Of a DNA stretch of 64,000 bases, positions 12,062 through 28,687 are shown in pieces. This stretch comes from Streptomyces sp. P9-A2. GTDB lineage: Bacteria; Actinomycetota; Actinomycetes; Streptomycetales; Streptomycetaceae. The notes beneath the pieces were generated by a model, which saw only the letters and a program-made list of their open reading frames with translations, ran no database searches and had not been told where the DNA came from. Made by a program: the position numbers and the translations under genes. The number at the start of each line of letters is the position of its first letter. Position 1 is the first letter of the stretch. The stretch is taken from assembly GCF_036634175.1 (NCBI RefSeq), contig NZ_JAZIFX010000001.1, positions 1,426,001 to 1,490,000 of the forward strand, in the 5' to 3' direction.

Positions 12062-12064
12062 GTA

Positions 12065-12140: not shown

Positions 12141-12887
12141 TCAGAGCCCAGGCAGGAGCGCTGCGCGAACATCGTGGTCGCGCAGCAGTGTGAGGGCTTC
12201 GGAGTCGTCCATGAAGATGTCGTCGGCGCCCGGCGCGAGCGCCTGGTGAAACATGGCGTGGACGACATCGGCGGTCGGTTGCTCCCAGATGGCGGCGGCG
12301 CAGTCCGCGGCATCCTCCAGATCGCCCTTGTCGACGGCGTTGCGCCAGTCCTTCAGGAGGAGCGGGGTGACCCGGTACGCACGTCGGCGTCCTCGGATGA
12401 GGATGCCGCGGTTGAGGCGGAAGACGTTGATCGTTTCCTTGCCCCGGTCCGTGAGGTCCAGGTACTCGCCGGTGGCCAGCGAGAGGTGCAGATGTGCCGC
12501 GGGGTCCTCACTGCTCGGGTCGATGAGCAGGGGCGTGCCGTCAACGGCGAGCGGGAAGACATCGCGCTTCAAGTGGCTGTTGCATAAGGAGCACGCCAGC
12601 AGATGGTTGCTCCAGTCGAAGGTCCGGAGCGGATTTTCACGGATGGGCTCGAAGTGATCGATGTCCGTGCCCTGGTTGTCCCCGCAGTACATGCAGCGTT
12701 CCAGCCCCGGCGCCATCTCCGCCAGGGCGGTGCGCAGGACCGGATGTACGTGTCTCCGCACGGTCGTGTGCTTCCATAACCACTTTGCCCGCTGCCTCGG
12801 GACGGGAGCCTGCCCGATGTCATCCGTGTGCCCGGACATCGCAGTCCGGGTCTGTTGCGGAAGAGACCCCCGAATGATGCGAATCAT
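12141..12887 (-). CDS. ptuB: HNH endonuclease, Septu PtuB-like
   Basis: This 248-residue HNH nuclease has a beta-beta-alpha metal finger formed by Cys65 and Cys68 (CMYCGD), Asp77-His78 (TDIDHFEP), Asn94-His95 (SNHLLAC) and Cys99/Cys102-Asn103 (CSLCNSH). The zinc and catalytic sets therefore look intact. The N-terminal 45 residues are basic and the C-terminus is helical. It overlaps the ATPase gene by 4 bp (12884-12887) and is its obligate downstream partner. In Septu defence (PtuA ATPase plus PtuB HNH nuclease) the pair degrades nucleic acid on phage infection. The assignment rests on domain pairing and order, not on a search. Confidence 0.78.
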   Translation of the reverse strand: MIRIIRGSLPQQTRTAMSGHTDDIGQAPVPRQRAKWLWKHTTVRRHVHPVLRTALAEMAPGLERCMYCGDNQGTDIDHFEPIRENPLRTFDWSNHLLACSLCNSHLKRDVFPLAVDGTPLLIDPSSEDPAAHLHLSLATGEYLDLTDRGKETINVFRLNRGILIRGRRRAYRVTPLLLKDWRNAVDKGDLEDAADCAAAIWEQPTADVVHAMFHQALAPGADDIFMDDSEALTLLRDHDVRAALLPGL

Positions 12888-14260
12888 GATTCGCCCCGTG
12901 GGCGGCCCGAGTGGCGCCGGGCCGCAATTTCGTCGACACGGGTCGCCGGGGAGCTGGTCAGCTTGCGTTTCAGTGCCCGGTACTGGGCCTTCTCCTCCTC
13001 GCTGGCGTGGCCTCGCACGACGTCCAGTTCCAGGGCGATGAGCTCGTCCCGTTTCTGCTCGGCCTTCTCCGAATAGAGCGTGTCGAGCCCGAAAAGGTCG
13101 GACAGCACAGCGTCGTCCCCACTGCCGAAGATGATGCGGTCGTAGAGGTGTTGAGGCACGACTTCCACCGGGCTGTCCTCGTCCGGCCCGGGGAGCCGGA
13201 TCAGTCCGCCCGGGTCGGCCGCCTGGCAGATGTAGGGGCTGTGCGTGGTGACGATGAACTGGATGTTCGGGAAGTGCGCCTTCAGCCAGCCGCCGATCCT
13301 CTTCTGCCAGGAGACGTGCAGGTGGGCGTCGATCTCGTCGATGATGACGACCCCGGTACTCGGCACGTTCGGGACACCGTCCGTCGTGTCGAGGACGAGT
13401 TCGCCGTAGGCGTCGTGGATCTGCTTGAGGATGTCCACGACCAGGGCGGCCACCGTCCGGTAGCCGTCGCTCATCTCACGCAGCGGGAACCGGTGGTCCC
13501 GGTTCATGACCCACAGGCCCTCGGAGTCGACGCTGTCGATGCGGTAGTCGTCGGGAAGCAGGTCGTCGCCGAGGATCGCCAAAGCGGCGGTCTTGAGATC
13601 CCGGGCGCCCTCACGGTCCTCGAAGGTGCGCAGATGCTGCTCGATGAGCCAGCTCACGCCTTCCGCCAGGGAGGCATCTTCGTGGAAGAGGCTGGTCAGT
13701 CGGGCGACCGCGCCCGAGGTGGACATCAGCCGCTGGATGTCGTTGGAGCCGCCGGCCAGTCGGCGGAAGGGGCCGTACCCGGCGCAGAACCACCCCACAG
13801 GATTGTCGGCCCACGGACCGCGCAACGCGACGGGTCGTTCCTTCTGGTAGCCGATGGCCATCAGCGACGGCTGGCCGGTCCTACTGGACCCCGGCTTGCC
13901 GGACAGCGATCCATCGCTCGACGCGGCCCACCGCAGGCCGGCCCAGACTGGCAGGGCCGACCGCCTCCCCCCGGTGAATTCGTCCTGCCCCGGCTCGTGG
14001 ACCAGGCACACCTCCGCCTTCGCCACCCGCTCGTCCCGGGAGACCCAGGTCTCGAACCCGGGGACGAGGCTCCGGGCGACGGCCGGCCCGCTGATCGCCA
14101 GGGCGAGCGCGCGCAGCAGCGTCGTCTTCCCCGAGCCGTTGCGGCCGGCCAGGACCGTCCAGCCGGCGTACGAGCCGTCGGGCCTGGTCAAGTCCAGGTC
14201 GACCGTGCGCCCACCGTGGAACGACCTGATGTTCCGTAGGCGCAGATTCTTGAGGTACAT
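12884..14260 (-). CDS. ptuA: AAA/ABC-type ATPase, Septu PtuA-like
   Basis: This 458-residue ATPase belongs to the SMC/OLD/PtuA-like group. Walker A is GRNGSGKTT (residues 39-47). A signature-like REMSDGYRT lies at 261-269, Walker B VVIIDEID at 304-311, D-loop AHLH follows, and the H-switch TTHSP is at 338-342. The start MYLKNLRLRNIRSF is the classic beta strand before the P-loop in RecF/SMC-type proteins. The C-terminal 100 residues are a charged helical region. It overlaps the HNH gene by 4 bp. No TOPRIM domain is seen, arguing against an OLD nuclease and for a PtuA-type sensor/regulator of the nuclease. Confidence 0.8.
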   Translation of the reverse strand: MYLKNLRLRNIRSFHGGRTVDLDLTRPDGSYAGWTVLAGRNGSGKTTLLRALALAISGPAVARSLVPGFETWVSRDERVAKAEVCLVHEPGQDEFTGGRRSALPVWAGLRWAASSDGSLSGKPGSSRTGQPSLMAIGYQKERPVALRGPWADNPVGWFCAGYGPFRRLAGGSNDIQRLMSTSGAVARLTSLFHEDASLAEGVSWLIEQHLRTFEDREGARDLKTAALAILGDDLLPDDYRIDSVDSEGLWVMNRDHRFPLREMSDGYRTVAALVVDILKQIHDAYGELVLDTTDGVPNVPSTGVVIIDEIDAHLHVSWQKRIGGWLKAHFPNIQFIVTTHSPYICQAADPGGLIRLPGPDEDSPVEVVPQHLYDRIIFGSGDDAVLSDLFGLDTLYSEKAEQKRDELIALELDVVRGHASEEEKAQYRALKRKLTSSPATRVDEIAARRHSGRPRGES

Positions 14261-14354: not shown

Positions 14355-14831
14355 TCAGTGGCTTCCTTCCAGGAAGGGGCTGTGCTTTACCGCCCACGTG
14401 ACGGCCAACTGTTCGCGGGCCCTGGTGGCTGCGACGAACAGCAGGGAGCGCTCACGCTGCATGTCACGCTCGTGCTGCAGACGGTCTTCGGACACCGGGG
14501 TGACGGCATGGGGCTGGGGCACGTGGTCGGCGCCGACGCCGATGATCGCCACCGCCCGGTATTCCAGTCCCTTGATCCGGTGCATCGTCATCACGTGTAC
14601 TCCGGAACCGGGCGCCGGGGTCTGCCGCGGCTTCACCTTGACGGCCTTGATCCCCGCACTCTCCAACGCCTCCACCGCCGCCTCGACGAGCTTGTTGGTG
14701 CGGGCGGTGACGACGATCTCGTCCTCCTTCAGCCCCTCGCCCAGCCAGCCCTCGACCCGTGCGGCCAGGCCGGTGAGCTCGGCAGCCGTGGAGGGGTATT
14801 CGACGAACTCCGGTCCGGCTCCCCCGCCCTA
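14355..14831 (-). pseudogene. UvrD/Rep-type helicase C-terminal remnant
   Basis: Open frame in this interval translates into the last part of a superfamily 1A helicase. It includes IVVTARTNKLVEAAVEALES, then motif V-like VMTMHRIKGLEYRAVAI, then motif VI SLLFVAATRAREQLAVTW, and a normal stop at 14355. Homology starts immediately after an in-frame TAG near 14832, so the N-terminal ATPase half, with Walker A and B, is missing. A 106-codon ATG frame inside it cannot be a functional helicase. It is transcribed toward the Septu-like ATPase and probably marks a deletion or recombination scar in the island. Confidence 0.75.
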
Positions 14832-14882: not shown

Positions 14883-15101
14883 TCAAGCCTTACTGCTGTG
14901 GCGCGCAGCGAAGCCAGTGAAGTCCGCCCACGTGGTGGGGGTCACCGTGAGCGCCGGGCCGGTGACGGCCTTCGAGTCACGAATGTGGACGGCCTGCCGC
15001 GAAGTGGCCACCTCTACGCACTGGCCACCCTCCGCACCGCTGTAACTGCTCTTGAACCACCGCAGATCCTGGGCCATGGTCGTGATCCCTCGGGCGTTCA
15101 T
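14883..15101 (-). CDS. DUF397 domain-containing protein
   Basis: This 72-residue protein is built almost entirely of a DUF397 domain. It has WFKSSYSG near the N-terminus, CVEVA, then VHIRDSK and WADFTGFA, all hallmark blocks. The ATG at 15101 overlaps the stop of the upstream regulator by 4 bp, although Met9 (15077), with AGGGA upstream, is a good alternative. DUF397 proteins are small partners of WhiJ-like XRE regulators in Streptomyces and modulate development or antibiotic production in the characterised loci. The exact mechanism is not settled. Confidence 0.93.
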   Translation of the reverse strand: MNARGITTMAQDLRWFKSSYSGAEGGQCVEVATSRQAVHIRDSKAVTGPALTVTPTTWADFTGFAARHSSKA

Positions 15102-15910
15102 AGCTCCCTCAGCAACTTCTCGATATAGGCCAGAGACTCACACGGAGTGAGGGCCTGCGCACGGATGATCCCATAGCGCGCGGCGAGTGCACGGACCTCT
15201 TCGCGATCAGTCACCAGTGTGCTACGTCCTTGCGCTTCTGTGTAGCCGATCTGCTCTCCTCCCTTAAGGGTGAACACCGTGAAGCCGCCGTCCACGCCAG
15301 CGTTGTCCTCCCGGTCGAGCGGCATCACCTGCACTTCAACATTGCGCTTCTCTCCGATCAGAAGGATCTGCTCCAACTGGCCTCTCACCACCGAGGCCCC
15401 TCCGAGCCGTCGCAGCATCACATGCTCTTCCATGACAAAACTGAACAAAGGAGCGGGCCACTTGTCGAGGATCTCCTGGCGAACCAGACGCGCCGCCATC
15501 CGCTCCTCGATCGTCTCTTCCTTCAGGAGCGGCCGACGCATGCGCAAAACCCCTCGCGTGTACTCCTCCGTCTGCAACAGGCCGTTGACCATGTGGGTGT
15601 CGTACATCTGCAACTCGACCGCCTCGGCCTCCAGCCGCGCCGCATCCCGGAAGAACGCCGGGTACCGCGCCCGCGCGACCTCCTCCTTCATCGCCCGCAG
15701 GACGCCTCCCGCATCCAGTACCTCATCCGCCCTGTCGATCAGCTCGGGCTTGGGGATACGGCGGCCGAGCTCGACCGACGTGATCTGGTCCTCCCCGTAA
15801 CCGAGCCGGGAACCCAGCTCCCCTCGCGTCAGCCCGGCCCGCTCCCGCAGCAGCTTCATCTGCCGCCCGAAGCACCGCAGGAAGTTCGCCCCGTCGTCCT
15901 GTTCCACCAT
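15098..15910 (-). CDS. XRE-family regulator with DUF5753 domain (WhiJ-like)
   Basis: This 270-residue protein has an N-terminal helix-turn-helix (LLRERAGLTRGELGSRLGYGEDQITSVE, about residues 20-50) and a long DUF5753 sensor domain. That domain includes YDTHMVNGLLQTEEYTRGVLR, RQEIL, and FTVFTLKGGEQIGYTEA near the C-terminus. The ATG at 15910 is preferred because GGAGG lies about 9 nt upstream, and because the longer frame to 15979 would cover repeated GCCGTACAC promoter elements. It forms an operon with DUF397 and is divergent from an ATP-binding protein gene, the classic Streptomyces abaA/whiJ-type trio. It probably represses its own intergenic region. Confidence 0.92.
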   Translation of the reverse strand: MVEQDDGANFLRCFGRQMKLLRERAGLTRGELGSRLGYGEDQITSVELGRRIPKPELIDRADEVLDAGGVLRAMKEEVARARYPAFFRDAARLEAEAVELQMYDTHMVNGLLQTEEYTRGVLRMRRPLLKEETIEERMAARLVRQEILDKWPAPLFSFVMEEHVMLRRLGGASVVRGQLEQILLIGEKRNVEVQVMPLDREDNAGVDGGFTVFTLKGGEQIGYTEAQGRSTLVTDREEVRALAARYGIIRAQALTPCESLAYIEKLLREL

Positions 15911-16158
15911 GCCCGCCGCCTCCGGCAACCCCTTAGCCCACAGTTCTGCCGCGCAGCCGTACACACTGAAGCCGTACACGCAGCGCGAGGCGTCACGCTA
16001 CGCGCAGTGACGAGGCGCTTGTCCCCCGAACACCCGCAAGTTCCCTCGTACGAGCATCCGCCGCCGCGTGTACGCACTCGGAAACCACCTGTACAGACCG
16101 GGCACGTACAGGCGTTTCCGCTGGTCAGCGCCGTGCCGTCTTCGGCAGGCTCACGGCC
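15911..16158. promoter_or_regulatory. Divergent promoter region of the WhiJ-like trio
   Basis: This 248-bp spacer separates the XRE gene from the ATP-binding gene. It has two GCCGTACAC direct repeats (15956-15964 and 15971-15979), further GTAC-containing repeats between 16060 and 16115, and a CGTCAC/GTGACG inverted pair (15991-15996 and 16007-16012). These are candidate operators for the XRE protein. No confident -10/-35 was picked. Confidence 0.4.
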
Positions 16159-16674
16159 ATGGAAACCTCTGGCATCACCACCCCGCAGGCGGACCAACCC
16201 CTCGCCGTCCCGCACGAGTTCGCCATGCAGTTCACCTCCACCCCGCGCGGTGCCCGTCTCGCCCGGCGTCTCGTCTCGCACCGGCTCGACCAGTGGGGAT
16301 ACCCATACGACTCCCCCGTCAACGAGACCCTGACCCTGATCACGGCCGAACTCGCGGCCAACGCCGTGCGGCACGGGCACGTCCCCGGCCGGGACTTCCA
16401 CCTCCGGCTGACCGCGGCCCCGGAGCTGCTCCGCGTCGAGGTGACGGACACCCGCACCGAGCGGGTGCCGCCCCCGTCCGTTCACGAGGCGTCCGGCGAC
16501 GCGGAGTCGGGCCGGGGGCTGCTGCTGGTGACCCGACTGGCCACCCGATGGGGCGCCGACCCACGGCCCGTCGCACCCGGCAAGACCGTCTGGGCGGAGC
16601 TCTCTCCAGCAGCCCCCTGCACGACCGCCGGAGTCAGTGCGCCGGCTTCCCCGGACGTACGGTCTTGCGGGTAG
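16159..16674 (+). CDS. ATP-binding protein, HATPase_c_2 anti-sigma-like
   Basis: This 171-residue protein has the GHKL fold of RsbW/SpoIIAB-type serine kinases. The N-box is LITAELAANAVRHGH (about residues 54-68), the G1-like strand is VEVTDT, and the G2 box is SGRGLLLVTRLATRWG (about 115-130). Such proteins in Streptomyces accompany WhiJ-like XRE regulators and DUF397 proteins, and may bind or phosphorylate a regulatory partner. The start MET at 16159 follows a short AT-poor leader. Its last 41 bp overlap, tail to tail, the 3' end of the Hsp70 gene on the other strand. Confidence 0.9.
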   Translation: METSGITTPQADQPLAVPHEFAMQFTSTPRGARLARRLVSHRLDQWGYPYDSPVNETLTLITAELAANAVRHGHVPGRDFHLRLTAAPELLRVEVTDTRTERVPPPSVHEASGDAESGRGLLLVTRLATRWGADPRPVAPGKTVWAELSPAAPCTTAGVSAPASPDVRSCG

Positions 16675-19132
16675 GAGCACGGAACTCGGCCTGGTCCCGG
16701 CGCATGTCCCGGTAGAGGTCCGCAATGCGGGACTTGGCGGCGTCGGTACGGGCGAGGTCGCCCTGCTGGACCGCATCGGTCAGTCCTTCACCGGCCTGGC
16801 GAATGCGTTGCTTCAACGCCGGGTTCACGCCGTTCTGGGAAGCGAAGCCCAAGGCACTCATCACCTGGTACAGGTCCTCCCCGAGGCGGCTTCGCATGGC
16901 CAGTACCTCCTGGGCGATCTTGTGTCCCCGGTCGAAGTCTCCGGCCTTGCGCGTGGTCTGCAGCTCGTTGCGGTGGCGGCGCATCGCCTCCAGGTCCTCC
17001 GGCGGCATCAGCTCCGCCACATGATGCGGGTAGAGGAACGCGAGGGCGGATGCCCAGCGGACGGCCTTCTGCCGCTCCAGAAGCTCGTCCGCCTCTTCCA
17101 GGAGCGTGTCCAGGGACCGTCCGGGCGCCTCGCCTCGCACGGTCAGCTCCAGCGCGCTCGCGGTCTCCTTCAGCACGGCGGATTCGGCCCGGGTGAGTTC
17201 ATGCTCCCACTCGGCGAGGAACATCTGGAACCGCTGGTGGACGTCCTTCGCCCGCCTGCGGAACTCCGGTGCCAGCAGATTGCGCCGGAAGACGGCGGGG
17301 GCGAAGTCCGCTCCGCCGAGCCGGGTCTCCAGGCGGATCGTGCGGTCCTTGTCGAGGTGCACGGCGAGGGTGAGGGGGTTGGTTCCCGTGATGCCCTCGG
17401 GCAGCGGGTACATCACGACGCCGCACAGATCGTTGCGCTCCGCGGGCTGGAGGTCGCCTTCGTACAGCGCGATCTCGAGCAGATCACCCGCGTTGCCGAT
17501 GACGGGGGAGTCGTACCGGGCTGCCTGCTCCGTGGGGTAGCGTTCGCCGGCCGGGAGCAGAGGAGTCGACAGCCCGTCGGCGGTATGGACGCCGATGCGG
17601 TGAGGGATCACACCGGACGGGGCCGTGACGGGCAGTTCCTCGTCACAGTACGAACACACCGTGAGACCCGGCCGGTTCACCAGCGCGCACTCCGGGCACT
17701 TCAGACCGCCGCCGCCCTGCAGTTCGGCTTCGCACAGGCCGCACTCCAGAGCCCCCGGGGCGTTCTCCTCCCCGCACTCGTCGCAGACGGCCAGGGAGGG
17801 CGTGGGCCGTTCGGCCGCGAGCCCGGTGAGGTCGGACGCGCAGACGGGACACGCCCCCGTCCCCTCGGAGGCGGGTACGTGGCACGTCGGGCACTCCACC
17901 GTCAAAGCGCCCACGAGCGGGGCGGCGCACTCGGGACACGCGTCGGCGTCCAGCGGACACACCGCGCGGCATTCGGGGCACTCCAGCTCTTCGACGAGCG
18001 CCGACTGAACGGCCGCGCCCAGCGCCACGCACGTCATGGGGTCCACGTCCGTGCGCAGCTTCTCCCGGCCGAAGACGGCCGCCAGCCGCTCCCCCACCAG
18101 CGGGACGGCGCTCGAGCCGCCCACCAGGAGAACCTGGTCCATGTCCTCCGGGCGCAGTGAGGCCTCGGCCACGGTCCTCAGGGTCAGCCGGACGGTCTCC
18201 TCGATCCTGTCGGAGATCAGGTCTTCGAGTGCCCCGCGGTCCACGGTCTCCGAGAGGGTCTCGCCGGAAGTGCCGAGCGGCGAGAGGATCACCTCGGTCG
18301 AGGAAGCGGCCGACAGGGTGATCTTGGCGCGCTCGGCGGCCTTGCGGATCCTCGCGGCATCGCCCGGCAGCGGTTCGTGTCCGGGGTTGCGTGCGTCGAG
18401 GAGTTCCTGGAGGTGGCCGGCCAGGCTGCTGTCGAAGTCCGTACCGCCGAGCAGGTTGTCCCCGCCCACGCCGAGCTCGTCCAGCACGCCCGGCATCAGG
18501 GTGAGGATGGAGACGTCGAAGGTGCCGCCTCCCAGGTCGTAGACGAGGACGGTCGCGGTGTCCTCGTCCTTCGCGCGGCCGAGGCCGTGGGCGAGCGCCG
18601 CCGACGTGGGTTCCGACAGCACCCGGACGACGTGGAAGCCGGCCAGTCTGCCCGCTTCGCGGGTGGCGGCGATCTGCCGTTCGCCGAAGTAGGCCGGTGC
18701 CGTGATCACCGCGCGGCCGAACTCCGTTTCGAGACGGGCCTCGGCGTTCCGCTTGAGCCGCCGGAGGATGATCGCGGAGATCTGGACGGGGGTGTAGCGG
18801 TGCTCTCCCAGCCGGATCAGAACGCCGCCGTCCGGCCCTTCGGTGATCTCGGGGCCGTCGTTCCCCATGCGGCGGAGGGCCTGCTGCACCTTCTCGTCCT
18901 TGAACTGACGCCCCATGAGGCGCTTGACGGTGGTGATCACGCGTGTGGCGTCCCGCTCCACCCAGTTCAGCGCCTCCTGTCCGACGAGGAGGCCGTCGTC
19001 CGCGGTGAGGCCCACGGCCGAGGGGGTTCCACTGGCCTCCGGGGTGCTGGAGACGACTTCCGGTTCGCCGTCCTTGAGCCAGGCCACGACCGAGTTGGTG
19101 GTGCCGAGGTCGATTCCGAGGGTTCTGCGCAC
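16634..19132 (-). CDS. Hsp70 family protein with four zinc ribbons in the interdomain linker
   Basis: This 832-residue DnaK-like chaperone has a complete nucleotide-binding domain (1-380) with IDLGTTNSVV (7-16), VLVYDLGGGTFDVSIL (195-210) and VLLVGGSSAVPLV (334-346). Instead of the short DnaK linker, residues 385-500 carry eight CxxC knuckles forming four zinc ribbons (CPEC/CPEC, CPTC/CPVC, CDEC/CGLC, CPEC/CSYC). A beta-type substrate-binding domain follows (about 508-610) and then a helical lid. The GTG at 19132 gives VRRTLGIDLGTTNS with AGGAA upstream; an earlier frame overlaps grpE. It is the last gene of the operon, 55 bp after the GrpE-like gene. The ribbons may contact nucleic acid or partners (inference). 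Confidence 0.9.
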   Translation of the reverse strand: MRRTLGIDLGTTNSVVAWLKDGEPEVVSSTPEASGTPSAVGLTADDGLLVGQEALNWVERDATRVITTVKRLMGRQFKDEKVQQALRRMGNDGPEITEGPDGGVLIRLGEHRYTPVQISAIILRRLKRNAEARLETEFGRAVITAPAYFGERQIAATREAGRLAGFHVVRVLSEPTSAALAHGLGRAKDEDTATVLVYDLGGGTFDVSILTLMPGVLDELGVGGDNLLGGTDFDSSLAGHLQELLDARNPGHEPLPGDAARIRKAAERAKITLSAASSTEVILSPLGTSGETLSETVDRGALEDLISDRIEETVRLTLRTVAEASLRPEDMDQVLLVGGSSAVPLVGERLAAVFGREKLRTDVDPMTCVALGAAVQSALVEELECPECRAVCPLDADACPECAAPLVGALTVECPTCHVPASEGTGACPVCASDLTGLAAERPTPSLAVCDECGEENAPGALECGLCEAELQGGGGLKCPECALVNRPGLTVCSYCDEELPVTAPSGVIPHRIGVHTADGLSTPLLPAGERYPTEQAARYDSPVIGNAGDLLEIALYEGDLQPAERNDLCGVVMYPLPEGITGTNPLTLAVHLDKDRTIRLETRLGGADFAPAVFRRNLLAPEFRRRAKDVHQRFQMFLAEWEHELTRAESAVLKETASALELTVRGEAPGRSLDTLLEEADELLERQKAVRWASALAFLYPHHVAELMPPEDLEAMRRHRNELQTTRKAGDFDRGHKIAQEVLAMRSRLGEDLYQVMSALGFASQNGVNPALKQRIRQAGEGLTDAVQQGDLARTDAAKSRIADLYRDMRRDQAEFRAPTRKTVRPGKPAH

Positions 19133-19187
19133 TTCCGGGTTCCTGTTCTGCGAGTGGACGATGCGGGGCGAGGGCACACGGGAGGAA

Positions 19188-19793
19188 TCAGGAGCGGCGA
19201 CGGCTGCGTCGCTTGTGCCGCGGCAGCCATCGGGGCTGCCTCCGTGGAGCGGCCGGGCCGGACCGCTTCGGCTCCCGTGCGGGTTCCTCGGGCGCCTCCG
19301 GGTCGGGTCCGTCGACGGCGACGACGACCTCGGCGGTCCGCAGCACCTGCTGCCCCCGATAGAAACCCGCCACCCGCTCCTCCAGCACCGTGTCGGCGGG
19401 CTGTCTGGACGTGGGACGCGTGTCCACGACCCGGGCGACCTCGGGCACCGCACGCCGGTGGGTGAGGTCCATCGGCCGGACATCGGCCTCCAGCAGCCGG
19501 AGACGCAGCAGCCTGTGTGCCGCGGAGACCTGTTCGCTCAGCCTCTCCATGGCCGCCACCGCGTGCCTCGGATCCTGGCGGACCGACCACCGCACGGACT
19601 CGGCGAGCGTGTCGTCGACCTCGAGGAGGCCAATGAGCAGGCGGTGGAGGGAGGACTCGGACTCGGCTTTCCGGTGCGCCAGTTCGTCCTCGTATCGGGC
19701 CCGCCGCCGCTCCAGGGCCTCACAGCGGGTGCGCAACTGCGCGATCAGGCGCTCCGTGTCGGAATCGGGCCGGGCGGAGGACGGTGCGGTCAA
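19188..19793 (-). CDS. GrpE-like nucleotide exchange factor
   Basis: This 201-residue protein has a long N-terminal coiled coil (DTERLIAQLRTRCEALERRR... about residues 12-60) and helical bundle. A short GrpE-like beta domain follows (VAGFYRGQQVLRTAEVVVAVD, about 141-161). The C-terminal tail is strongly basic (KRRSRRRS), which housekeeping GrpE lacks. GrpE proteins release ADP from Hsp70, and the Hsp70 gene follows directly. The start is a TTG at 19793 supported by GGAG 6 nt upstream; the ATG at 19798 is immediately followed by a stop in its frame. The basic tail might bind nucleic acid or acidic protein (inference). Confidence 0.8.
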   Translation of the reverse strand: MTAPSSARPDSDTERLIAQLRTRCEALERRRARYEDELAHRKAESESSLHRLLIGLLEVDDTLAESVRWSVRQDPRHAVAAMERLSEQVSAAHRLLRLRLLEADVRPMDLTHRRAVPEVARVVDTRPTSRQPADTVLEERVAGFYRGQQVLRTAEVVVAVDGPDPEAPEEPAREPKRSGPAAPRRQPRWLPRHKRRSRRRS

Positions 19794-19841
19794 CGCATGC
19801 TCCAGGGGGGTGGGAGGTGGGCTTCCGGAGGGCCTGGGCCT

Positions 19842-20162
19842 TCAGTCGGGCCGTACGCCTAGGCTCGCGGGGTCGGGGAGCAGGGGGGATACCTCCACCA
19901 TGCGCAGACGTGCCTCGTCCGACAGGGCACTGTCCGCATCGGGCGGCAGTCGGCCGGGCAGCGACGTCAAGAGGTTCGCCTCATGGCGTCCGGCGGAGCG
20001 CCGGAGGGTGCTGTACGCCCGAGAGATGCGATCACGCCGGGCGCGATCGCGCTGGGCCGATTTCATGGCTCGGCGGTAGGCGGCATGAACGTCGGCGTCG
20101 GAGGCGCCGATCTCCAGCCCCAGCACGTCGTAGGGGGAATCAGTGAACATCTTCCCGGGCAC
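19842..20162 (-). CDS. J-domain-like protein lacking the HPD motif
   Basis: This 106-residue protein starts with a truncated J-like fold. SPYDVLGLEIGASDADVHAAYRRA corresponds to helices I-II and RISRAYSTLRRSAGR to helix III. The loop that carries the invariant His-Pro-Asp in DnaJ is replaced by a short basic stretch (KSAQRDRARRD), so it should not stimulate Hsp70 ATPase in the normal way. The remainder (after residue 62) is unique. The GTG at 20162 has AGGGA 6 nt upstream; Met5 at 20150 is an alternative. It sits 12 bp after the TPR gene, in the same operon as GrpE and Hsp70, which supports a chaperone role. Confidence 0.72.
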   Translation of the reverse strand: MPGKMFTDSPYDVLGLEIGASDADVHAAYRRAMKSAQRDRARRDRISRAYSTLRRSAGRHEANLLTSLPGRLPPDADSALSDEARLRMVEVSPLLPDPASLGVRPD

Positions 20163-20174
20163 CCCGTTTCCCTG

Positions 20175-22796
20175 TCACCACAGCTGGTCGTCTTCTTGAA
20201 GCCCGAAGAGGGGCAGTTGGCGGTCCGTGTCCCGCGTACGCCCGTCTCGACGGGGTGAACGCGCGTCAATGCGGGCACTCTTGGCCGGCCGCCGACGGGC
20301 GCGCCGGGCACGGGCCTCGGCCACCGCCGCATCGAGTCGGCTCCGGTCGCCGACATCGGACGGGCACCAACAGGCGAGGGCGATGGCCCCGTCGTAATCC
20401 CCGTCCGCGCACAGTAGTTCCGCAAGGTCGGCCAGGAGCCACGCCTGGATGTCGGAGATGTTCTGGAGAACCGCATAGCTACGGACGACGCCCAGGATGT
20501 CGAGTGTTTCCCGCAACTCCTCCTCATCCAGCTCGCGGGGTGGCAAAACCCTCTCGAAGAGGCCGTGCGCGATGTCGCACTCCGGGCCCTCTTCGCTGAA
20601 GCACCGGCAGTCGTCGTCCGAGGGATCCGAGAGAAGCCGGGCCTCCCGCATCAGGCTCAGGGCTTCTGCGCGGTCACCCTCCACAGCACTGTCAAGCGAG
20701 TGTTCGTAAAGAACGGGAACCAAGGCGCGGCGAGCGGGCCGGAAGTCTCCGTCGCGGTCGAGGACTGCGCGCAGTGCGGCGACGGCCCGCTTTCGCCCGG
20801 CTTCGGACTGACTCTCCAGAAGGCGTTCGGCATGGCTCGTCTCGGACGCGTTCAGCGCCGCGACGGCCGACTCGTTCGAGGGATCCAGCTCGTACGCGCG
20901 GGCGAAGCGAACGCGAGCCTCGTCGTGGGCGTTCCGCTGCCGGACCTGCTCGCCCAGGTCCACACATCCGGCGGCCAGGTTCCGTTTCAGCTTCTCGTGC
21001 TGCGGGGCCATGACCAGGACACGCTCAAGGAGGCCGACATACGCCTGCCAGTCGACCTTGACACAGTTCTTGGACAGGGCGAATCCCGCATGCACGCCCG
21101 CCCGCCCGATCTGCTCCTCGTGGCCGACGAGGGAGATGCCGACGGCCGCCGCGTCCTCGAAGTCCCGTACCGCGGCGGACCAGCGTTTGGCCTCCGCATG
21201 TGCGTACGCCCGGGCGAGGAGGGCGGCACCGAGGACACGCCACGGGCCTTGGAAGAGCCCGGTGTCTTCGTGAGCCTTGTGCCTCGCGATGCCTTCGGCT
21301 TCGAGGGCGACGATCACGTCGTCGAACCTGCCGGGCTCCAGCAGCATCAGGTAGCGCCCCTCGGGGGACAACAGGCCCTCGAGCCGATCGCCGGTCGCAT
21401 CACCCTCGAGGCTTGCATCCGACACCGCGCTGTGGACACTCGCGACCAGGGTTTTCCACGAGCTGCCGACCGACGACAGAAGGTCGAGGAAACCCGGGCC
21501 GAAGGAGAAGTCGTACCCGGCCTCCAGGGGCGTCAAGACGTCTTCCATGGCTTCGGGAAGGCTCTGGGCAACGGCCAGTTCGACCTCCCAGGCCAATTCC
21601 AGGCTGTCCACCGGCGGCCGTTCCGCGGCTCTGTCGTCGTCCCGCAGTGTCTGACGGATGCGCTCGGTGAGGGCGTCCGAGGCGGCCTTCCGCTCGTCGG
21701 CCGTCAACGGGCTCCCGGAGTGCCGCTCGAGCTCTTCCCAGTAGGAGACGGAGTGCAGGACCATCGCCCAGCAGGCGACGGCCTGCCGCGCGGCCTCCTC
21801 CCGAGTCTGGTCGTCCGCCTCGGTGTCACCGTCGAAGACCCGTAGAGCCGCGAGTGCCAGGGCGTGCACCGCGGCGGTGTCGACCGGCCTCGTCAGCCAC
21901 TCCTCGTACCGGGCCCGCCACGCCTCGACATGACGGCCCGTACGGCTCAGCCGACGTGCCGCCCAGGGGCGCAGCCACTCGTGTGCCTCGGGAAGCGGCG
22001 AGTCCGAGGCTCCGGGCTCCGGAACACAGGCCCGTTCCAGATCCGTGGGGTGGAGGGTCCTGGACGCGCGGTACAGCAGAAGGGCCGCACGCCGGTCGGG
22101 TGCGAAGGAATCAAGAACGTCGGCCTGCTCACCGAGGTCCGCGGCTTCTTCCGGAGCGAGGCAGGCCAGCAGCGCCTTCGCTGTGCCCCAGTTCGCCGTG
22201 TGGGCCCAGGACGCGAGGGTCTCTATGGCGGTCCCGACACGGTCGGCCAGGGTCGCTGACTGCGCCAGGTTGTGCAGCGCCACGTCGAGACACGGACCGC
22301 AGCGGGCCACACCGTCTTCGCGCTCCGCGCCGTGCTCAGGGCAGAACCAGCGGTCACACTGACCGCACAGGCTGTCGACAGCGCCCGTGCAGTCTTCGTG
22401 GAAGCACAGAAGGGTCTGCTGGCGTGCGTGATCCCCAGGAAGCGAGAAAGCCAGCGACCGCTCGTACCAGTCACAGCACTCGGCCCAGTTCTGTGCGCGG
22501 GCCGCGAGCGCTCCCCGTAGGGCGGCGTGACGGGCATCGACCACCGCGCGGCCGGCTGCCGCGGCACGTTCCAGCCGCCGCAGATGACTGATGGCAATCG
22601 CGAAACGGCCCTGAGTATAGGCAGCGACAGCCTGCTCGAACACAGCGGACGGGTCACCCACCGTTGCACCGTCGTCCTCGGCACCTCCCCACGCGGTGTG
22701 CGACACCACCGTCCCCCTCCGGTCTGCCCACGACACGGAAGCAGGCATCGACCGACGCCCCCTCCGGCCGATCTTCCGCATATGCCTGTGCAGCAT
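20175..22796 (-). CDS. Large zinc-finger/TPR repeat protein
   Basis: This 873-residue protein of unknown function is largely alpha-helical with TPR-like repeats. Clear ones are AVFEQAVAAYTQGRFAIAIS near residue 55 and ARVRFARAYELDPSNESAVAA toward residue 640. Residues 131-169 form a RING/B-box-like zinc module (Cys131, Cys136, Cys144, Cys147, Cys152, His155, Cys166, Cys169). TPR scaffolds often bind Hsp70 and clients, and this gene is followed by J-like, GrpE-like and Hsp70 genes. The ATG at 22796 lies 6 bp after the PLD gene's stop; Met17 (22748), with GGAGG upstream, is a possible alternative. No enzyme motif is seen. Confidence 0.8.
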   Translation of the reverse strand: MLHRHMRKIGRRGRRSMPASVSWADRRGTVVSHTAWGGAEDDGATVGDPSAVFEQAVAAYTQGRFAIAISHLRRLERAAAAGRAVVDARHAALRGALAARAQNWAECCDWYERSLAFSLPGDHARQQTLLCFHEDCTGAVDSLCGQCDRWFCPEHGAEREDGVARCGPCLDVALHNLAQSATLADRVGTAIETLASWAHTANWGTAKALLACLAPEEAADLGEQADVLDSFAPDRRAALLLYRASRTLHPTDLERACVPEPGASDSPLPEAHEWLRPWAARRLSRTGRHVEAWRARYEEWLTRPVDTAAVHALALAALRVFDGDTEADDQTREEAARQAVACWAMVLHSVSYWEELERHSGSPLTADERKAASDALTERIRQTLRDDDRAAERPPVDSLELAWEVELAVAQSLPEAMEDVLTPLEAGYDFSFGPGFLDLLSSVGSSWKTLVASVHSAVSDASLEGDATGDRLEGLLSPEGRYLMLLEPGRFDDVIVALEAEGIARHKAHEDTGLFQGPWRVLGAALLARAYAHAEAKRWSAAVRDFEDAAAVGISLVGHEEQIGRAGVHAGFALSKNCVKVDWQAYVGLLERVLVMAPQHEKLKRNLAAGCVDLGEQVRQRNAHDEARVRFARAYELDPSNESAVAALNASETSHAERLLESQSEAGRKRAVAALRAVLDRDGDFRPARRALVPVLYEHSLDSAVEGDRAEALSLMREARLLSDPSDDDCRCFSEEGPECDIAHGLFERVLPPRELDEEELRETLDILGVVRSYAVLQNISDIQAWLLADLAELLCADGDYDGAIALACWCPSDVGDRSRLDAAVAEARARRARRRPAKSARIDARSPRRDGRTRDTDRQLPLFGLQEDDQLW

Positions 22797-22802
22797 AGAG
22801 TC

Positions 22803-25466
22803 TCAGGTGGTGTCCTCGAACAGTCGTCGCATCAACTCCGGGTACGGCAGATCCACTTCGGCCAAAGTTGTCCTCAAAGCTTCGGGCGGGCCCGTTCTGA
22901 GCGGGGTCGGAGCGCCGACGAGACCGGGGACGGTGGAAAAGTCACCGCCGCTGAACCGTGACTCCGGTGTGGCCGGGGAACGCACCTCGTACGTGCGCCA
23001 CACGCGTGCAGGGGGATTCAGCAGGACCAGCCAGGGCTTCGCCCAGGCGGCGAACGCCCAGCGCCTCCTTCCACGGGCGCGGACGAGCACCCCGTCGGTG
23101 TGATGCCGACCGAGTCGGTCGGCTGCTCTGGCCACGACCGGGATCGGGTTTCCGAAGGAGCCCGTGATGTCCCAGATCCCGTCCTCGTACGTGACGGACC
23201 AGCCCGCCTTGGAGAGCTCCTCGATCACCTCGGCGTGCGGATCGTCCTCCTTGGCCAGGGCCACGAGCCGTTCCACTTCGCTCCAGGGCGCGACGCGGGC
23301 GAGCGCCTGCTCCGGCGGCAGCATCAGGTCCTCGGCCTCGGCAGGGTCGGCACGCGCGATCATGCTCTTGTGGTTCTGCCATGTGCGGGCGGCCAGCACG
23401 TCGTGCTCACCGCCGCCGGTGAAGGTGGCGTCCTGGCTGAGCAGGGTCATCAGGACGGCCGCCACCGCGTCCACGCGTTGTCCGGTCTCGGGCGGGGCCT
23501 GCTGTTCCGCCGTCTCGTCGTCCGGTCCGCCTCGAGGACCGAGATCCCTGAGGAGACCGCTCAAGCCGTCACGCCAGCTGTGATCGTCGTCGTCCCAGAC
23601 GCCTGCGGCCAGGAGTTGGACGTACAGACCGGCCACCATCAGCCGCACCGCAAGGGGTTGCGGTTTGTCAGGGTCGGCGAGCGTGGCAGCCCAGCGCCGC
23701 ACCCAGTGGCGGCAGCGGGCACGCTGCTCAGGGGGGACGTTCGGAACGAGGGGTGAACCGTCGGCAACGAGGTCTTCTTCCTCCCCTGTGTCGTCGTACG
23801 CCTCGTCGTCCTCCGCCGACACGGTGGCGGTGACCGCCGACACGGTCCATCGAGAGGCCGGTGGTTGGGGCAGGCCGATCTGTGCGGTGCCGAATGCCAG
23901 GCCGGTCAGTGGAGCTCCGATCATCCGACTGCATTCGGCGACGTAGGCGTCCCAGCGGTCGATGCCGCTCGTGTCCACCGGGTTCGTCGCCGTTTCCGAC
24001 GTCGCCGCGCTCGCGCGGGAAGCGGACGCACCGGCGGTGAGCTCGCGCAGCCGCAGCAGATCCGTCTCGAAACGGCGGGCCGCGGCTTCGTCCGCGAACA
24101 GCACCTCTGCCGTGTAGTCGTACCGCAGCCGGGGCCCGCTGTCGGCGGTTCGGCCGCCTGCGCAGTGCACGGGGCTGTACACGAAGACGACGGGTGATTC
24201 TGCGCTGCTGCCGTCCGGTCGCAGGCAGGTCGCGCGGACGGCCGCGCCGGGCACCTCGGTGATCGGGAAGGAGCGGGTCGAATCCCCGGCGGGGAGGGAA
24301 CCGATGTCCGTCCAGGAGCCCGGTGATCCGTCCGGGGACGTACTGATCACCACGGGTGCCGGCTCGCCACGGGCCAGCGAGACGTGGAGACCCGCGCTGT
24401 CCGTCTTGGCGCCCAGCAGGACCAGCACGGGGCCGGCGCCGGTGGTGAAGGGACGGAGGGTACGGCCCGTCAGGGCCGTGAGCGCGGTGGTGCGCCCTTC
24501 TTCGGGAAGCAGGGGCGTGGTGTCGGCGGAGAGCACGGCGAGTTCGCAGTTGCCCCCGTCCTTGGTGCTCCTGCACAAGGCGGCGCGGGTGAGGTTGGGG
24601 CTGCCGGTGAGTGCGTGCCTGCGCCCGCCGACGCTCCATTCGACGAACTTGCCGTGCCGCATCCGCGTCTCGTCGAGGAGCCGGATCCGGGTGGGGTATT
24701 CATCGAGCGCCGTCTTGAGCGTTTCGGCGTCGTAGCTCGACCAGCGGGGCTGGAGGCCGAGAGTGACCTGTCCGGGGATCAGGCGGTCGACGAGGGCTCG
24801 GAGGGCGTGTGCCTCCGGGTCGATGAACGGGGCGTATGCCTGGATCTCGTCGACAGGGCCCGCCGGCAGTTGGTCGATCAGGTTCCGGTGGAGGTTGTGC
24901 AGCAGCCGCGGACCGGTTTCCGAACCGGCGGGGGCGTTGACGTGCCTTTCGGTCAGGAGGGCCGCGAGTTCTCCGAGGTGGCCCGCGGTCCAGGGGGCCA
25001 GGTCCACGGCGGCGGGCAGGTCCTCCAGCCATTCCGCGAGATCGGCCAGCAACGCGTGGGAAGCTTCGTCCTCGGTCTCCACGACGGTCCACAGCTCGTC
25101 GTTGGCACCCCAGCCGGACAGCGTCGGGTTCCCCGAGCCGACGGCCAGTCGACAGGCGTGTTCCCCGATCAGCAGGACGACTTTGGGGTGGAACGCGCCC
25201 CGGCAGCCGGCAAGTCCGTGCAGGTAACTGCGGCCTGCCCAGCGCACGTCGACCGGGTCGTACAGCCCTTGGGCCGCGTCGCCGATCACCGCGATCCGGG
25301 CGCCCAGGCCACGTGCGACGGAAATCGCGACCTTTTCCAGGAACGGGAGATCGACGGTGAAACCCAGGAACAGCGCTTCGCGCAGTGCTTGCCCGTCGCT
25401 GCGCTCGGCCCATTCACGCAGCAGCGTGACGGGGGACGCGAACCTGGTGTGCTGTACCGCGCTCAC
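22803..25466 (-). CDS. Phospholipase D-like (PLD nuclease-type) protein
   Basis: This 887-residue protein carries two PLD-like half-sites in its first third. The first is HPK (His93, Lys95) with GSGN (110-113); the second is HGK (His271, Lys273) with GSPN (288-291). The Asp of the classical HKD motif is absent in both, as in several DNA-acting PLD relatives. The remaining 580 residues include an acidic middle (DDEAYDDTGEEEDLVAD) and a C-terminal domain I do not recognise. The GTG start overlaps the 513-aa gene by 4 bp. No signal peptide is present, so it acts in the cytoplasm. It is the likely effector of the operon (inference from family and context). Confidence 0.82.
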   Translation of the reverse strand: MSAVQHTRFASPVTLLREWAERSDGQALREALFLGFTVDLPFLEKVAISVARGLGARIAVIGDAAQGLYDPVDVRWAGRSYLHGLAGCRGAFHPKVVLLIGEHACRLAVGSGNPTLSGWGANDELWTVVETEDEASHALLADLAEWLEDLPAAVDLAPWTAGHLGELAALLTERHVNAPAGSETGPRLLHNLHRNLIDQLPAGPVDEIQAYAPFIDPEAHALRALVDRLIPGQVTLGLQPRWSSYDAETLKTALDEYPTRIRLLDETRMRHGKFVEWSVGGRRHALTGSPNLTRAALCRSTKDGGNCELAVLSADTTPLLPEEGRTTALTALTGRTLRPFTTGAGPVLVLLGAKTDSAGLHVSLARGEPAPVVISTSPDGSPGSWTDIGSLPAGDSTRSFPITEVPGAAVRATCLRPDGSSAESPVVFVYSPVHCAGGRTADSGPRLRYDYTAEVLFADEAAARRFETDLLRLRELTAGASASRASAATSETATNPVDTSGIDRWDAYVAECSRMIGAPLTGLAFGTAQIGLPQPPASRWTVSAVTATVSAEDDEAYDDTGEEEDLVADGSPLVPNVPPEQRARCRHWVRRWAATLADPDKPQPLAVRLMVAGLYVQLLAAGVWDDDDHSWRDGLSGLLRDLGPRGGPDDETAEQQAPPETGQRVDAVAAVLMTLLSQDATFTGGGEHDVLAARTWQNHKSMIARADPAEAEDLMLPPEQALARVAPWSEVERLVALAKEDDPHAEVIEELSKAGWSVTYEDGIWDITGSFGNPIPVVARAADRLGRHHTDGVLVRARGRRRWAFAAWAKPWLVLLNPPARVWRTYEVRSPATPESRFSGGDFSTVPGLVGAPTPLRTGPPEALRTTLAEVDLPYPELMRRLFEDTT

Positions 25467-27004
25467 CGCTCCGTCTCCAGGATCTTCCGGCCGGACGCCG
25501 TGACGACGTGGCAGCCGTCCTGGACGGCGAAGAGTCCGAGCTGTCTGCCGAAGGAACCCAGTTGGGGGATACGGGTACCGATCTCGGAATCTCCCTCGTC
25601 TCCGGTCTTGAAATACCGTTCGTTGCGCAGATGCAGACGCGAGAAGATCTTCAGTCCGCCTGTCGCCGGGTCGGTGCGCAGCTTGCCGAGCGCCACTCTG
25701 CGGGACTGCGCCAGCATGTCGTCCACCAGCCGGGCGGCCAGGTCGTGGACCGGCCGGTCGGAGAAGTCACGGATGAGGCCGTCGACCCAGGTCGGGTCAA
25801 GAAATTCCGCCGACCGCCTCTGCCGGCCGAGGAAGACGGCACGTACGTCGTCGGGCAGTTGGCCCTCCCGGGAACGCAGGGCTCCGGCCAGCAGAAGCAG
25901 CACGTTGGTCATGGGGGCGTCACCGCCGTCCACAAGCAGTTGCCGTTCGGCCGGCAGCAGTCGTCCGTCCGGGCTCTTGAGCTGCGGCAGCTGCCCCAGT
26001 GTCTGCCGCACGGTCCCGGCCGGGGCCTGTTGTGCCAGCCAGTCGCGAAGCTCCTGCGGCGACGTGTCGGCCTCTCCGTCCCTGGATCCGACGCAGGACA
26101 CGAGGGCGGCCCACAACCGGCGCCAGGCGCCAACGGAGTAGTGGCGCAGGAGCAGCCCGCGCCAGCCCATCGCCTCCGGGATGGTGGTCAGGACGGGATC
26201 CGTGCTCATGTCCTCACCGAACACAACGGCTGAGCGCAGAGTCTCCTGGTAGCCCTCGCCCTTCTGGCCATGAAGGGCGATCGCCCGGCCGAGGATCCGG
26301 AAGGTTGCCCTTCGGGTGCGATCGAACGCCTCCCAGTCCTGAGGCCGATGGACTCCCCCGGCATCAGTGGCGGTCAGCACGTGCGTCAGCCAGTCCTGTT
26401 CGACCGGAGACGGGACCCCGAGCGCGACCTGGCCGGCATGCTCCAGATCCGCAGCGGGTACAACGTCCTGCTCGGCGAGGGCGAGCAGCGGGTCGAACAG
26501 TTCCCGGAAAGTCGCGGGAAGGGCACGCCGGCCGGGCCGGAGCGCTCCTTCCCGGACCTCCACAGTTCCGAGCACCGTGGCCGGTCCTCCGTACTGGTCC
26601 CAGAAACCCCATCGACGGGGCGAGTACGACTGGCTCAGGTGTTCCTCGCCGGCCGCACGTGCCAATTCCAGCTCCTGTGTGCGGAATCGCCGCACCCGGT
26701 CGACTCCATGGGCGAACCATGCCTCGTCGGCAGCCTCCGTATCGTGCTGGAGTGCGGCCATCAACACCTCGCAGCGGCGGACGAGTCGGCGGCAGGCGGA
26801 GAGGTCCAAGGCCTTCTGCTCGGCGTGCGCGGCGATCGCCGCGTACAACGAGTGGTAACGGATATAGCGGGTCACTGTGGAAACCCCTGGTACCAACCGG
26901 TCGACCGCCCGCATCACCGGGCCCTCCACAGCCAACGGGTAGCGCCCGGACCGCACCCCCAGTCCTTCCCGTGCCCATGCCGGTCCCTGAACGTCCGTGG
27001 TCAC
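25463..27004 (-). CDS. Unknown 513-aa protein, first gene of the chaperone/PLD operon
   Basis: I do not recognise this protein with confidence. The N-terminus contains VDRLVPGVSTVTRYIRYHSL (residues 35-54), a PG-S/T-x-x-T-R-x-x-RY pattern that faintly recalls DUF6361-type proteins found near PLD genes. That resemblance is from memory and weak. The middle is alpha-helical. The C-terminus (RLHLRNERYF... LGSFGRQLGLF... VTASGRKILE) looks like a winged helix. The GTG at 27004 has GGAGG 6 nt upstream. Its stop overlaps the PLD start by 4 bp, so the two proteins are probably made together, and this one may be the recognition subunit. The promoter must lie in 27005-27238. Confidence 0.75.
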   Translation of the reverse strand: MTTDVQGPAWAREGLGVRSGRYPLAVEGPVMRAVDRLVPGVSTVTRYIRYHSLYAAIAAHAEQKALDLSACRRLVRRCEVLMAALQHDTEAADEAWFAHGVDRVRRFRTQELELARAAGEEHLSQSYSPRRWGFWDQYGGPATVLGTVEVREGALRPGRRALPATFRELFDPLLALAEQDVVPAADLEHAGQVALGVPSPVEQDWLTHVLTATDAGGVHRPQDWEAFDRTRRATFRILGRAIALHGQKGEGYQETLRSAVVFGEDMSTDPVLTTIPEAMGWRGLLLRHYSVGAWRRLWAALVSCVGSRDGEADTSPQELRDWLAQQAPAGTVRQTLGQLPQLKSPDGRLLPAERQLLVDGGDAPMTNVLLLLAGALRSREGQLPDDVRAVFLGRQRRSAEFLDPTWVDGLIRDFSDRPVHDLAARLVDDMLAQSRRVALGKLRTDPATGGLKIFSRLHLRNERYFKTGDEGDSEIGTRIPQLGSFGRQLGLFAVQDGCHVVTASGRKILETER

Positions 27005-27238
27005 CGCGTGCCTCCCCGCTCACCCGGCGTCCGAGTACCTCACCGGCCACCGCTCTGTGATCCAACGCTCAGCGTAGGGGCCGGGTTTTGGGCATGTGGC
27101 CGGTTTCTCCGGACTCTCGGCCGGTCATGGTGCGGGCCGCACGGCAGCGTGCCGCGGATCTCCGGCCCATGCTTGCCGCCGTGTCAGGCGCACCCTCGCG
27201 CGCTCCGAGCCTCAGCCCGGGCCAGGCAGAATGGCGGC

Positions 27239-27613
27239 ATGACCACGCTTTCCTGCCCCTGCGGGCTCCCCGAGACCTACGAGGCGTGCTGCGGCCGCTT
27301 CCACACGGGGGCGGCCGCCGCGCCGACCGCCGAGCGGCTGATGCGGTCGCGGTACTGCGCCTTCGTGCGGCTGGACGCCGGTTACCTGCTGCGCACGTGG
27401 CATCCGCGGACGCGGCCGGAGCGGGTCGACCTCGATCCCGGGATGCGGTGGACCGGGCTGGAGATCCTGGAGACGGCCGGCGGGTCCGCCTTCCACTCCA
27501 CCGGGACGGTGACCTTCCGGGCGTCCTACCGGGGCGGCTCGCTGCACGAGCGCAGCCGCTTCGAGCGGGTGGACGGGGCGTGGGTGTACGTCGACGGGGA
27601 GTTCCTGAGCTGA
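27239..27613 (+). CDS. YchJ family (UPF0225) protein
   Basis: This 124-residue protein begins with an SEC-C-like zinc motif, SCPCGLPETYEACCGRFH (Cys6, Cys8, Cys17, Cys18), followed by AERLMRSRYCAFVRLDAGYLLRTWHP, the core of the YchJ family (SnoaL/NTF2-like fold). The function is unknown. It matches UPF0225 protein SCO1677 in my memory, and marks the right border of the accessory island. The ATG at 27239 is well placed; longer frames run through the divergent operon's promoter. Confidence 0.92.
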   Translation: MTTLSCPCGLPETYEACCGRFHTGAAAAPTAERLMRSRYCAFVRLDAGYLLRTWHPRTRPERVDLDPGMRWTGLEILETAGGSAFHSTGTVTFRASYRGGSLHERSRFERVDGAWVYVDGEFLS

Positions 27614-27639: not shown

Positions 27640-27848
27640 GCCCCGCCCATCTCGACGGGCTCCCGCCCGCCGGGCACGTCCGTCCTTCTCGCTTCGGGCC
27701 GCCGCCGACAGAGCGGAACACTGTTCCGCGTCGCGACCAGGACAACGCTCCGCTCGCCGACGCGGCCGGAGCCGGACGCTTCCGGCCGTCCCGGTTGCCC
27801 CGGTCTCCGTCGGCCGGACGAGGCGACGCCCCGACGCGGCCCGCCCGG

Positions 27849-28550: not shown

Positions 28551-28585
28551 GCACTCAGAGTACGGGGCGGATCACCGAAACCAAA

Positions 28586-28670: not shown

Positions 28671-28687
28671 CAGACAGTGAGGCAGCG

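Follow-up and report, generated by a model that had tools for sequence, protein, structure and literature searches.

Two separable gene modules, a PLD-family pair and an Hsp70 cassette, side by side in a Streptomyces defence locus

Within a 64,000-nucleotide stretch of the Streptomyces sp. P9-A2 genome (assembly GCF_036634175.1, contig NZ_JAZIFX010000001.1; C1:1426001-1490000 of an 8.39-Mb, two-contig genome), referred to here as the window, six consecutive genes encode a protein of 513 amino acids (aa; A), a PLD-family protein (B) and a set of chaperone-type proteins (C to F). Across genomes each of the two halves, A-B and C-F, stays together, and the two are largely found apart from each other. 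We think it on balance probable that C-F is an Hsp70 device serving helicase-nuclease defence complexes, with A-B as the likely remaining client in this genome. We read the locus from its gene content, intact motifs, modularity, neighbourhoods and a stretch that is missing from the window, and from neighbourhood we infer client. The six genes are:

25463..27004, minus strand: A, 513 aa, predicted array of helical/winged-helix-like domains, a possible DNA-recognition partner of B
22803..25466, minus strand: B, 887-aa PLD-family protein with two HxK half-sites, predicted nuclease
20175..22796, minus strand: C, 873-aa TPR protein with a Cys/His-rich stretch at 131-169, predicted scaffold or client binder
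19842..20162, minus strand: D, 106-aa J-like protein without the HPD motif (13-copy alignment)
19188..19793, minus strand: E, GrpE-like nucleotide-exchange factor, 201 aa, TTG start, PF01025 at 4.2e-7
16634..19132, minus strand: F, Hsp70, 832 aa, domain layout from sequence and structure comparison

The six open reading frames (ORFs) are real, intact and close-packed, with intergenic distances from A to F of -4, 6, 12, 48 and 55 bases. Their presence, coordinates and shared strand are as given in the preliminary description of this DNA, whose choice of 19132 as the Hsp70 start agrees with relatives; the automatic ORF start at 19483 lies too far upstream. From 15900 to 27300 there are zero promoter-like sites, scored on the sigma-70 consensus only, and two terminator-like sites, below the shuffled mean of 2.9. 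The closest named homologues of the window proteins are from Streptomyces, and A-F occurs complete and collinear in three relatives (L001, L002 and L009; L denotes fetched loci and G genomes). Gene calls on fetched loci came from our own GC-frame script, with which genes can be missed and starts misplaced: it overlooked D, and for L090 and L091, both of low GC, it returned no genes and an ORF listing took its place.

Pairwise ratios of non-synonymous to synonymous substitution (dN/dS) for A-F, between the window and two or three relatives, range from 0.16 to 0.50, so A-F are genes under selection; these values pool the time before and after the operon deletion described below. Against L001 or L002 the range is 0.16-0.39, close to the 0.16-0.42 between L001 and L002 themselves, and C against L009 reaches 0.50. 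Judged by distance to L002, the window lineage shows little added rate, except in A (dN 0.105 versus 0.068). A non-functional relic, left after loss of an ARMADA-like operon, is what C-F would be on one account; the remnants in G273 and G330 show that such decay occurs, but with six intact ORFs, the ratios just given and little extra rate outside A, we regard it as highly improbable here, and C-F as an unselected relic is rejected on dN/dS.

The A-B pair is a mobile unit separable from C-F. Among 256 Streptomyces genomes, 17 have a match to A and 18 a match to B, 2 of each being weak; in G375 B is present and A undetected. B adjoins A in all 15 genomes with a whole-length A match (that of G284 being in two pieces), yet C-F follows B in just two of them, the window and G312, and fragments of C, E and F lie beside intact A-B in a third, G273. 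In the other 12 there is no C-F cassette beside A-B within the fetched stretches (about 18-39 kb in total, roughly 4-30 kb per side), and two of these, G250 and G039, have another type of Hsp70-like gene close by. Beyond the genus, A was found in 4 of 197 genomes class-wide and, with a profile, in 6 of 396 phylum-wide. In plasmid records with A, B adjoins it in 6 of 6, five more plasmid records have weak partial B matches only, and a search of phage records with A found none.

The pair turns up in several host loci, the first four given here lying outside the genus. In L024, a BREX-2-like operon, the order is PglW, PglX, an 801-aa protein, A, B, BrxC/PglY and PglZ. In L090, DrmMI-DrmA-DrmB is followed about 0.7 kb on by a same-strand A-B and then a PbeA-like helicase, so that A-B occupies the position of DrmC in DISARM. 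Low-GC L091 has A-B next to another gene pair, and in plasmid L087 A-B is followed by a type III methyltransferase and a restriction protein. A NACHT gene lies 3.4 kb from A-B in L095 and a CHAT gene next door in L088, while the annotations of plasmid loci L093 and L094 include nothing of a named defence type for about 9 kb around. Two further loci are recorded as observations: L022 (8201-19032) holds a diverged copy of the pair whose neighbours are Mokosh-like genes, encoding a DrmC/MkoB-like PLD protein and an MkoA-like helicase, and on the Streptomyces griseoaurantiacus plasmid L089 the pair sits between a CATRA conflict locus and an SNF2-kinase-DUF397-XRE set resembling the one in the ARMADA-like operon. 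L089 also encodes a TPR protein adjacent to A-B, which was considered as a relative of C and rejected, there being no match.

At protein level, A resisted assignment: Pfam gives two matches only (E 0.035-0.062), no PADLOC model matches at E 0.1, NCBIfam is likewise without result, and the best hit of a Foldseek structure search has E 0.28. For A and B alike, PDB sequence profiles give none at E 1. B has a PLDc_2 match of 4.2e-4, under the Pfam cut-off, and weak PADLOC matches to ZacB (5e-10), PDC-M27B (8e-7) and DrmC (0.014). Both PLD half-sites of B are conserved, H93/K95/N113/E124 and H271/K273/N291/E308 being invariant or shared by at least 90% of 25 aligned B proteins. A would be the recogniser and B the nuclease of a pair that may act alone or serve a host system, at L090 in the place of DrmC.

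With a FokI-like top match for A, the type III methyltransferase after A-B in L087 and N6-methyltransferase matches near A-B in, for example, G312, G250, G287, G261, G227 and G418, the pair could also be the restriction half of a methylation-based system, with recognition and PLD cleavage split between two proteins and a neighbouring methyltransferase needed. In the window, however, the MT1, MT2 and N6MT queries are all unmatched, no methyltransferase is among the scanned proteins at 12-27 kb (ORFs scanned in part), and plasmid loci L094 and L095 carry A-B with none annotated nearby; we consider this quite unlikely.

C-F is likewise a unit of its own, in Streptomyces mostly within defence loci. 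Searching with the C-terminal half of F gave matches in 16 of the 256 Streptomyces genomes (4 weak) and in 20 of 372 order-wide (5 weak), two samples that overlap; a neighbourhood search with C alone returned only two loci. A first version of the cassette is present in the window, L001, L002 and L009, with a remnant in G330 and fragments in G273. A second version, whose F is 41-45% identical to the window's (7 copies aligned), occurs in 14 genomes across the two surveys (G427, G224, G341, G244, G364, G420, G354, G278, G339, G466, G639, G690, G714 and G511), always in the order TPR, J-like, GrpE, Hsp70. None of the 14 has A-B in its fetched surroundings, and all 14 have a kinase, an SNF2 helicase and a methyltransferase within about 26 kb (neighbour families were named by PADLOC and Pfam on representatives). 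In 13 of the 14 the kinase is fused to an MZB-domain helicase, the fused protein of G354 having 2115 aa. DrmA and DrmB adjoin 10 of the 14 cassettes, the exceptions being G224, G639, G511 and G420; in G420, which has DrmA pieces of 73-80% only, the cassette stands behind a same-strand DruE-like helicase and a UvrD-like gene. Across the Streptomyces survey, second-version cassettes occur in 7 of 10 genomes with a DrmA at least 81% identical to that of L032, versus 2 of 246 others (Fisher p 3e-10, the genomes being related and not independent). This frequent adjacency in relatives suggests that the Hsp70 machine helps run large helicase-based defences.

Several observations weigh against a strict link of DrmA and cassette. 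Three of the 10 genomes with DrmA at 81% or more lack the cassette, 11 genomes with DrmA at 69-71% have zero second-version cassettes, a first-version-like cassette (F 52%) in G462 lies amid ordinary genes, and G657 and G569 have a related chaperone set in a core-like context (1408-aa TPR protein, J-like, GrpE, Hsp70 and a 120-aa zinc-ribbon-like protein, with a kinase on the other strand). The free-standing G462 cassette, the core-like sets in two genomes of another genus and the intact ATPase motifs would all suit chaperones for stress or housekeeping that are only carried along with defence islands. The set is patchy, though, at 16 of 256 genomes, it keeps kinase-SNF2-methyltransferase company in 14 of 14 second-version loci and its J protein lacks HPD, and we judge a housekeeping role improbable.

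Related genes were noted alongside these loci. Two genomes of a different genus in the family carry a related set in core-like surroundings (L079 9369-17329 and L082 2377-10337), with a TPR protein of about 1400 aa bearing an N-terminal hydrophobic stretch (by eye), a 142-aa J-like protein, GrpE and Hsp70; this set could be near the ancestral form of the cassette. L038 (1365-7712) and homologues encode such a fusion, 2115 aa long, in which the helicase partner of the protein kinase is Druantia-like and carries an MZB domain. Downstream of B in G250, where C-F would be, sits a 693-aa Hsp70-like protein (L012 6667-8748; HSP70 9e-55) with a C-terminal Zc3h12a-like NYN RNase domain (RNase_Zc3h12a 3.2e-5), and a gene similar by eye lies beside the F remnant in G330 (L025 11225-13240). 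Lastly, a 591-aa Hsp70-like protein is encoded about 1.8 kb upstream of A in L009 (1135-2910) and L011 (16198-17973); Pfam matches its ATPase part only, and the L009 copy is without a PADLOC match.

Taken as one functional unit, A to F would form a conflict system in which the PLD effector B is held back or set free by the chaperones, as had been proposed. Tight gene spacing, the same order found whole in L001, L002 and L009, and the apparent sharing of a contig with the A/B matches listed by 8 of 24 C homologues of at least 39% identity (the window's included; record matching over the best 120 of 232 A and the best 120 of 319 B matches) are in its favour. Its best point is the S. sclerotialus locus (L002/G439), where none of the 27 queries other than A-F matches within about 25 kb on each side; the same locus also fits A-B as client. 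Set against this are the 12 of 15 genomes that have A-B without C-F, the decayed C-F beside intact A-B in G273 and the second-version loci, whose fetched surroundings lack A-B in 14 of 14. A six-gene unit of this kind is therefore unlikely, and the six as an indivisible system are rejected. A conserved neighbourhood holds for each half and not for the six, which are mostly apart, the outcome named beforehand as refuting; dedication of the chaperones to the PLD protein is not supported by the same counts. We return to the two-module reading in what follows.

F has the ATPase domain of an Hsp70, with its catalytic residues: Pfam reports Hsp70 at E 6.8e-96 plus a double zinc ribbon, and D8, K70, E174, D199 and T204 are invariant in 14 sequences. 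Its layout is an ATPase at 1-380, four zinc ribbons at 385-496, a region like the beta part of the substrate-binding domain at 508-617 and a helical end at 622-816. The stretch of the hydrophobic linker is occupied by the zinc ribbons. For the substrate-binding part there is a weak colinear match at 508-597, and a model of residues 2-617 aligns structurally with DnaK 2-502 at a root-mean-square deviation of 27. The GrpE match of E (4.2e-7) is above the Pfam cut-off, while those of D to DnaJ (1.8e-4) and of C to TPR_2 (1.4e-4) are both under it. D is J-like, as described earlier, but the HPD motif is missing in 13 of 13 aligned copies, so it is no normal J co-chaperone and was rejected as a canonical one. 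F is distinct from housekeeping DnaK, which is indeed elsewhere, two DnaK-type genes with near-full family-model matches lying at other genome sites.

The region downstream of F accounts for the missing stretch:

16159..16674, plus strand: HATPase_c_2 protein (PF13581 1.6e-11), part of a HATPase/XRE/DUF397-like regulatory trio
15098..15910, minus strand: XRE/DUF5753 regulator, with a homologue between cassette and ARMADA-like operon in G438 and G312
14883..15101, minus strand: 72-aa ORF, DUF397-like by position only (in L089 an annotated DUF397 gene lies beside XRE)
14358..14825, minus strand: UvrD/GajB-like helicase remnant, residues 558-713 of a gene that in G312 encodes 713 aa and is the last of the ARMADA-like operon
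12884..14260, minus strand: PtuA, Septu ATPase (PADLOC E 3.6e-184, 611 bits)
12141..12839, minus strand: PtuB, Septu partner (PADLOC E 3.7e-97, 323 bits)

On the opposite strand, the HATPase_c_2 gene runs 41 bases into the end of F. G438 (Streptomyces sp. AC558_RSS880, L001/L064) and G312 share the order A-B-C-D-E-F-XRE-kinase-SNF2-methyltransferase-DruE-like helicase-UvrD-PtuA-PtuB, with an extra N6 methyltransferase between XRE and kinase in G312, whose fetched stretch ends inside PtuB; G250 has A-B and the complete downstream operon and no C-F. The window matches G438 over 14896-27607 and 11895-14806, plus flanks in pieces at 8403-11817 and 27848-30754; since the chromosomal flanks match, the site is the same. 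By coordinate subtraction, about 17.5 kb relative to G438 and about 19.5 kb relative to G312 are missing between the joint ends. The window retains the small ORF at 14883-15101, which in relatives is behind the XRE gene, and keeps the cut end of the relatives' neighbouring helicase block. Because the UvrD-like gene is cut at the joint, deletion in the window lineage is favoured over insertion elsewhere, and the ARMADA-like operon was presumably lost by internal deletion.

Two observations lie outside this comparison. The island border at 27849-30753 carries gluconate-type genes by our own sequence reading (GntR-like regulator, kinase-like and transporter-like), a flank also present in G438. 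Near 2.998 Mb the same genome has a further DrmA-DrmB pair (L092 9650-14763; 37% and 33% to those of L032), with 634-aa helicase-like and 1491-aa proteins upstream, and DrmA matches at about 40-44% are found in many of the 256 Streptomyces genomes.

A defence setting, proposed from the outset, is borne out by the complete Septu pair just downstream and by relatives of both halves within known defence loci. Septu is a neighbour system outside A-F, and a PADLOC run, suggested earlier as a check, recovers it while leaving A unmatched and B with only weak matches. In excerpts of PMC12458937, ARMADA Type II has the order BrxHII/DrmD-like helicase, PglX/DrmMI-like methyltransferase, Druantia-like helicase, GajB-like helicase. 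G438, G312, G250 and G420 have this order (PADLOC on the G312 copies), their genes being a DrmD/BrxHII-like helicase, a type IIG/DrmMI-like methyltransferase, a Druantia-like MZB helicase and a GajB-like helicase; kinase-helicase, SNF2 and methyltransferase together resemble the order of Type I in the same excerpts. In contrast, all that the window has of the GajB-like gene is its final 156 residues, and the relatives add a kinase and, in some, the Hsp70 cassette. The core queries Hel1, SNF2 and MT are unmatched in the window, and all three match in G438, G312 and G250. We say "ARMADA-like" because RelE-like and Vsr-like ends were not detected on UvrD1 and Hel1; the GajB-like gene of G312 is whole and in order, with no RelE match at its N-terminus. 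The words "hsp70", "kinase" and "chaperone" are absent from the main text of the ARMADA paper (Bell et al. 2025 preprint, PMC12458937), whose supplementary tables could list these cassette genes. In the open-licence literature, seen partly in excerpt and with supplements and subscription papers outside the search, we found among the papers listed no published Hsp70-GrpE-TPR cassette with DISARM or ARMADA.

Likeness to DISARM (PMC9142583, from excerpts) lies in DrmA-DrmB beside 10 of 14 second-version cassettes and in the DrmC position of A-B at L090. B has PLD HxK pairs, but its match to the DrmC model has E 0.014. DrmA and DrmB queries are unmatched anywhere in the window, and neither gene is among the six. 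The earlier statement that DISARM helicase and DUF1998 genes are missing here is thus true of the window, but close relatives have such genes next door.

GAP1-N2 GTPase systems, in the portions consulted of Kaur et al. 2020 (PMC7159879), carry HSP70, GrpE and either DnaJ or TPR-FNIII proteins; the likeness is that, in actinobacteria and firmicutes, genes for HSP70 and GrpE go together with one for a J/TPR protein. Those systems are centred on a GTPase and GAP1, whereas no FNIII, GAP1 or zinc-ribbon GTPase is found in A-F (Pfam; neighbours scanned in part), nor FNIII in three further TPR proteins. Type III CoCoNuTs are predicted defence operons that bring together an Hsp70-like protein and, in III-C, a PLD nuclease, but in the excerpts of PMC11090510 their Hsp70-like proteins have degenerate Walker A-like motifs, unlike F with its intact ATPase residues, and no McrB-like GTPase (CnuB), the CoCoNuT core, is found in A-F (Pfam, PADLOC; neighbours scanned in part). 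Membership of A-F in either group is unlikely.

B is also weakly similar to ZacB and PDC-M27B. We take the ZacB and ZacC of PADLOC-DB to be those of Azaca (ZacABC), and membership in that system was rejected, the ZacB match being weak and a ZacC-type helicase being absent among the six.

In the two-module reading, A would recognise DNA or a defence helicase and B would cut nucleic acid, by analogy with what DrmC is thought to do for DISARM. F would bind and release clients in an ATP cycle, with E exchanging nucleotide, C recruiting clients through its TPR part and Cys/His-rich stretch, and the zinc ribbons between ATPase and substrate domain offering a second docking surface. D may be an HPD-less J remnant retained as an adaptor; without HPD, it is probably the client or C that sets off hydrolysis, and the loss argues against ordinary J-driven folding cycles. 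Given such adaptor parts (TPR, Cys/His-rich stretch, zinc ribbons), fixed clients fit better than unfolded protein in general, and since the usual company is helicase, methyltransferase and kinase, C-F may be an ATP-driven device acting on large defence assemblies. As usual clients it would then have the large complexes of helicase, methyltransferase and kinase in ARMADA- or DISARM-type systems, and it could load these, hold them inactive or take them apart; after the operon loss it would most likely act on A-B, or on defence proteins coded elsewhere.

Large helicase/nuclease defences need safety as well as readiness. The Hsp70 cassette that recurs beside DISARM/ARMADA-type loci is a concrete, deletable candidate for control of their assembly and restraint, and A-B is a two-gene candidate defence module in which the A half is without any PADLOC model match. 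Tentatively, and with less confidence than in the two modules themselves, we suggest a transferable chaperone control of ARMADA/DISARM-class complexes and of the split recogniser/PLD nuclease A-B, one that assembles them or keeps them off until infection. If true, this would be a chaperone-gated branch of bacterial immunity.

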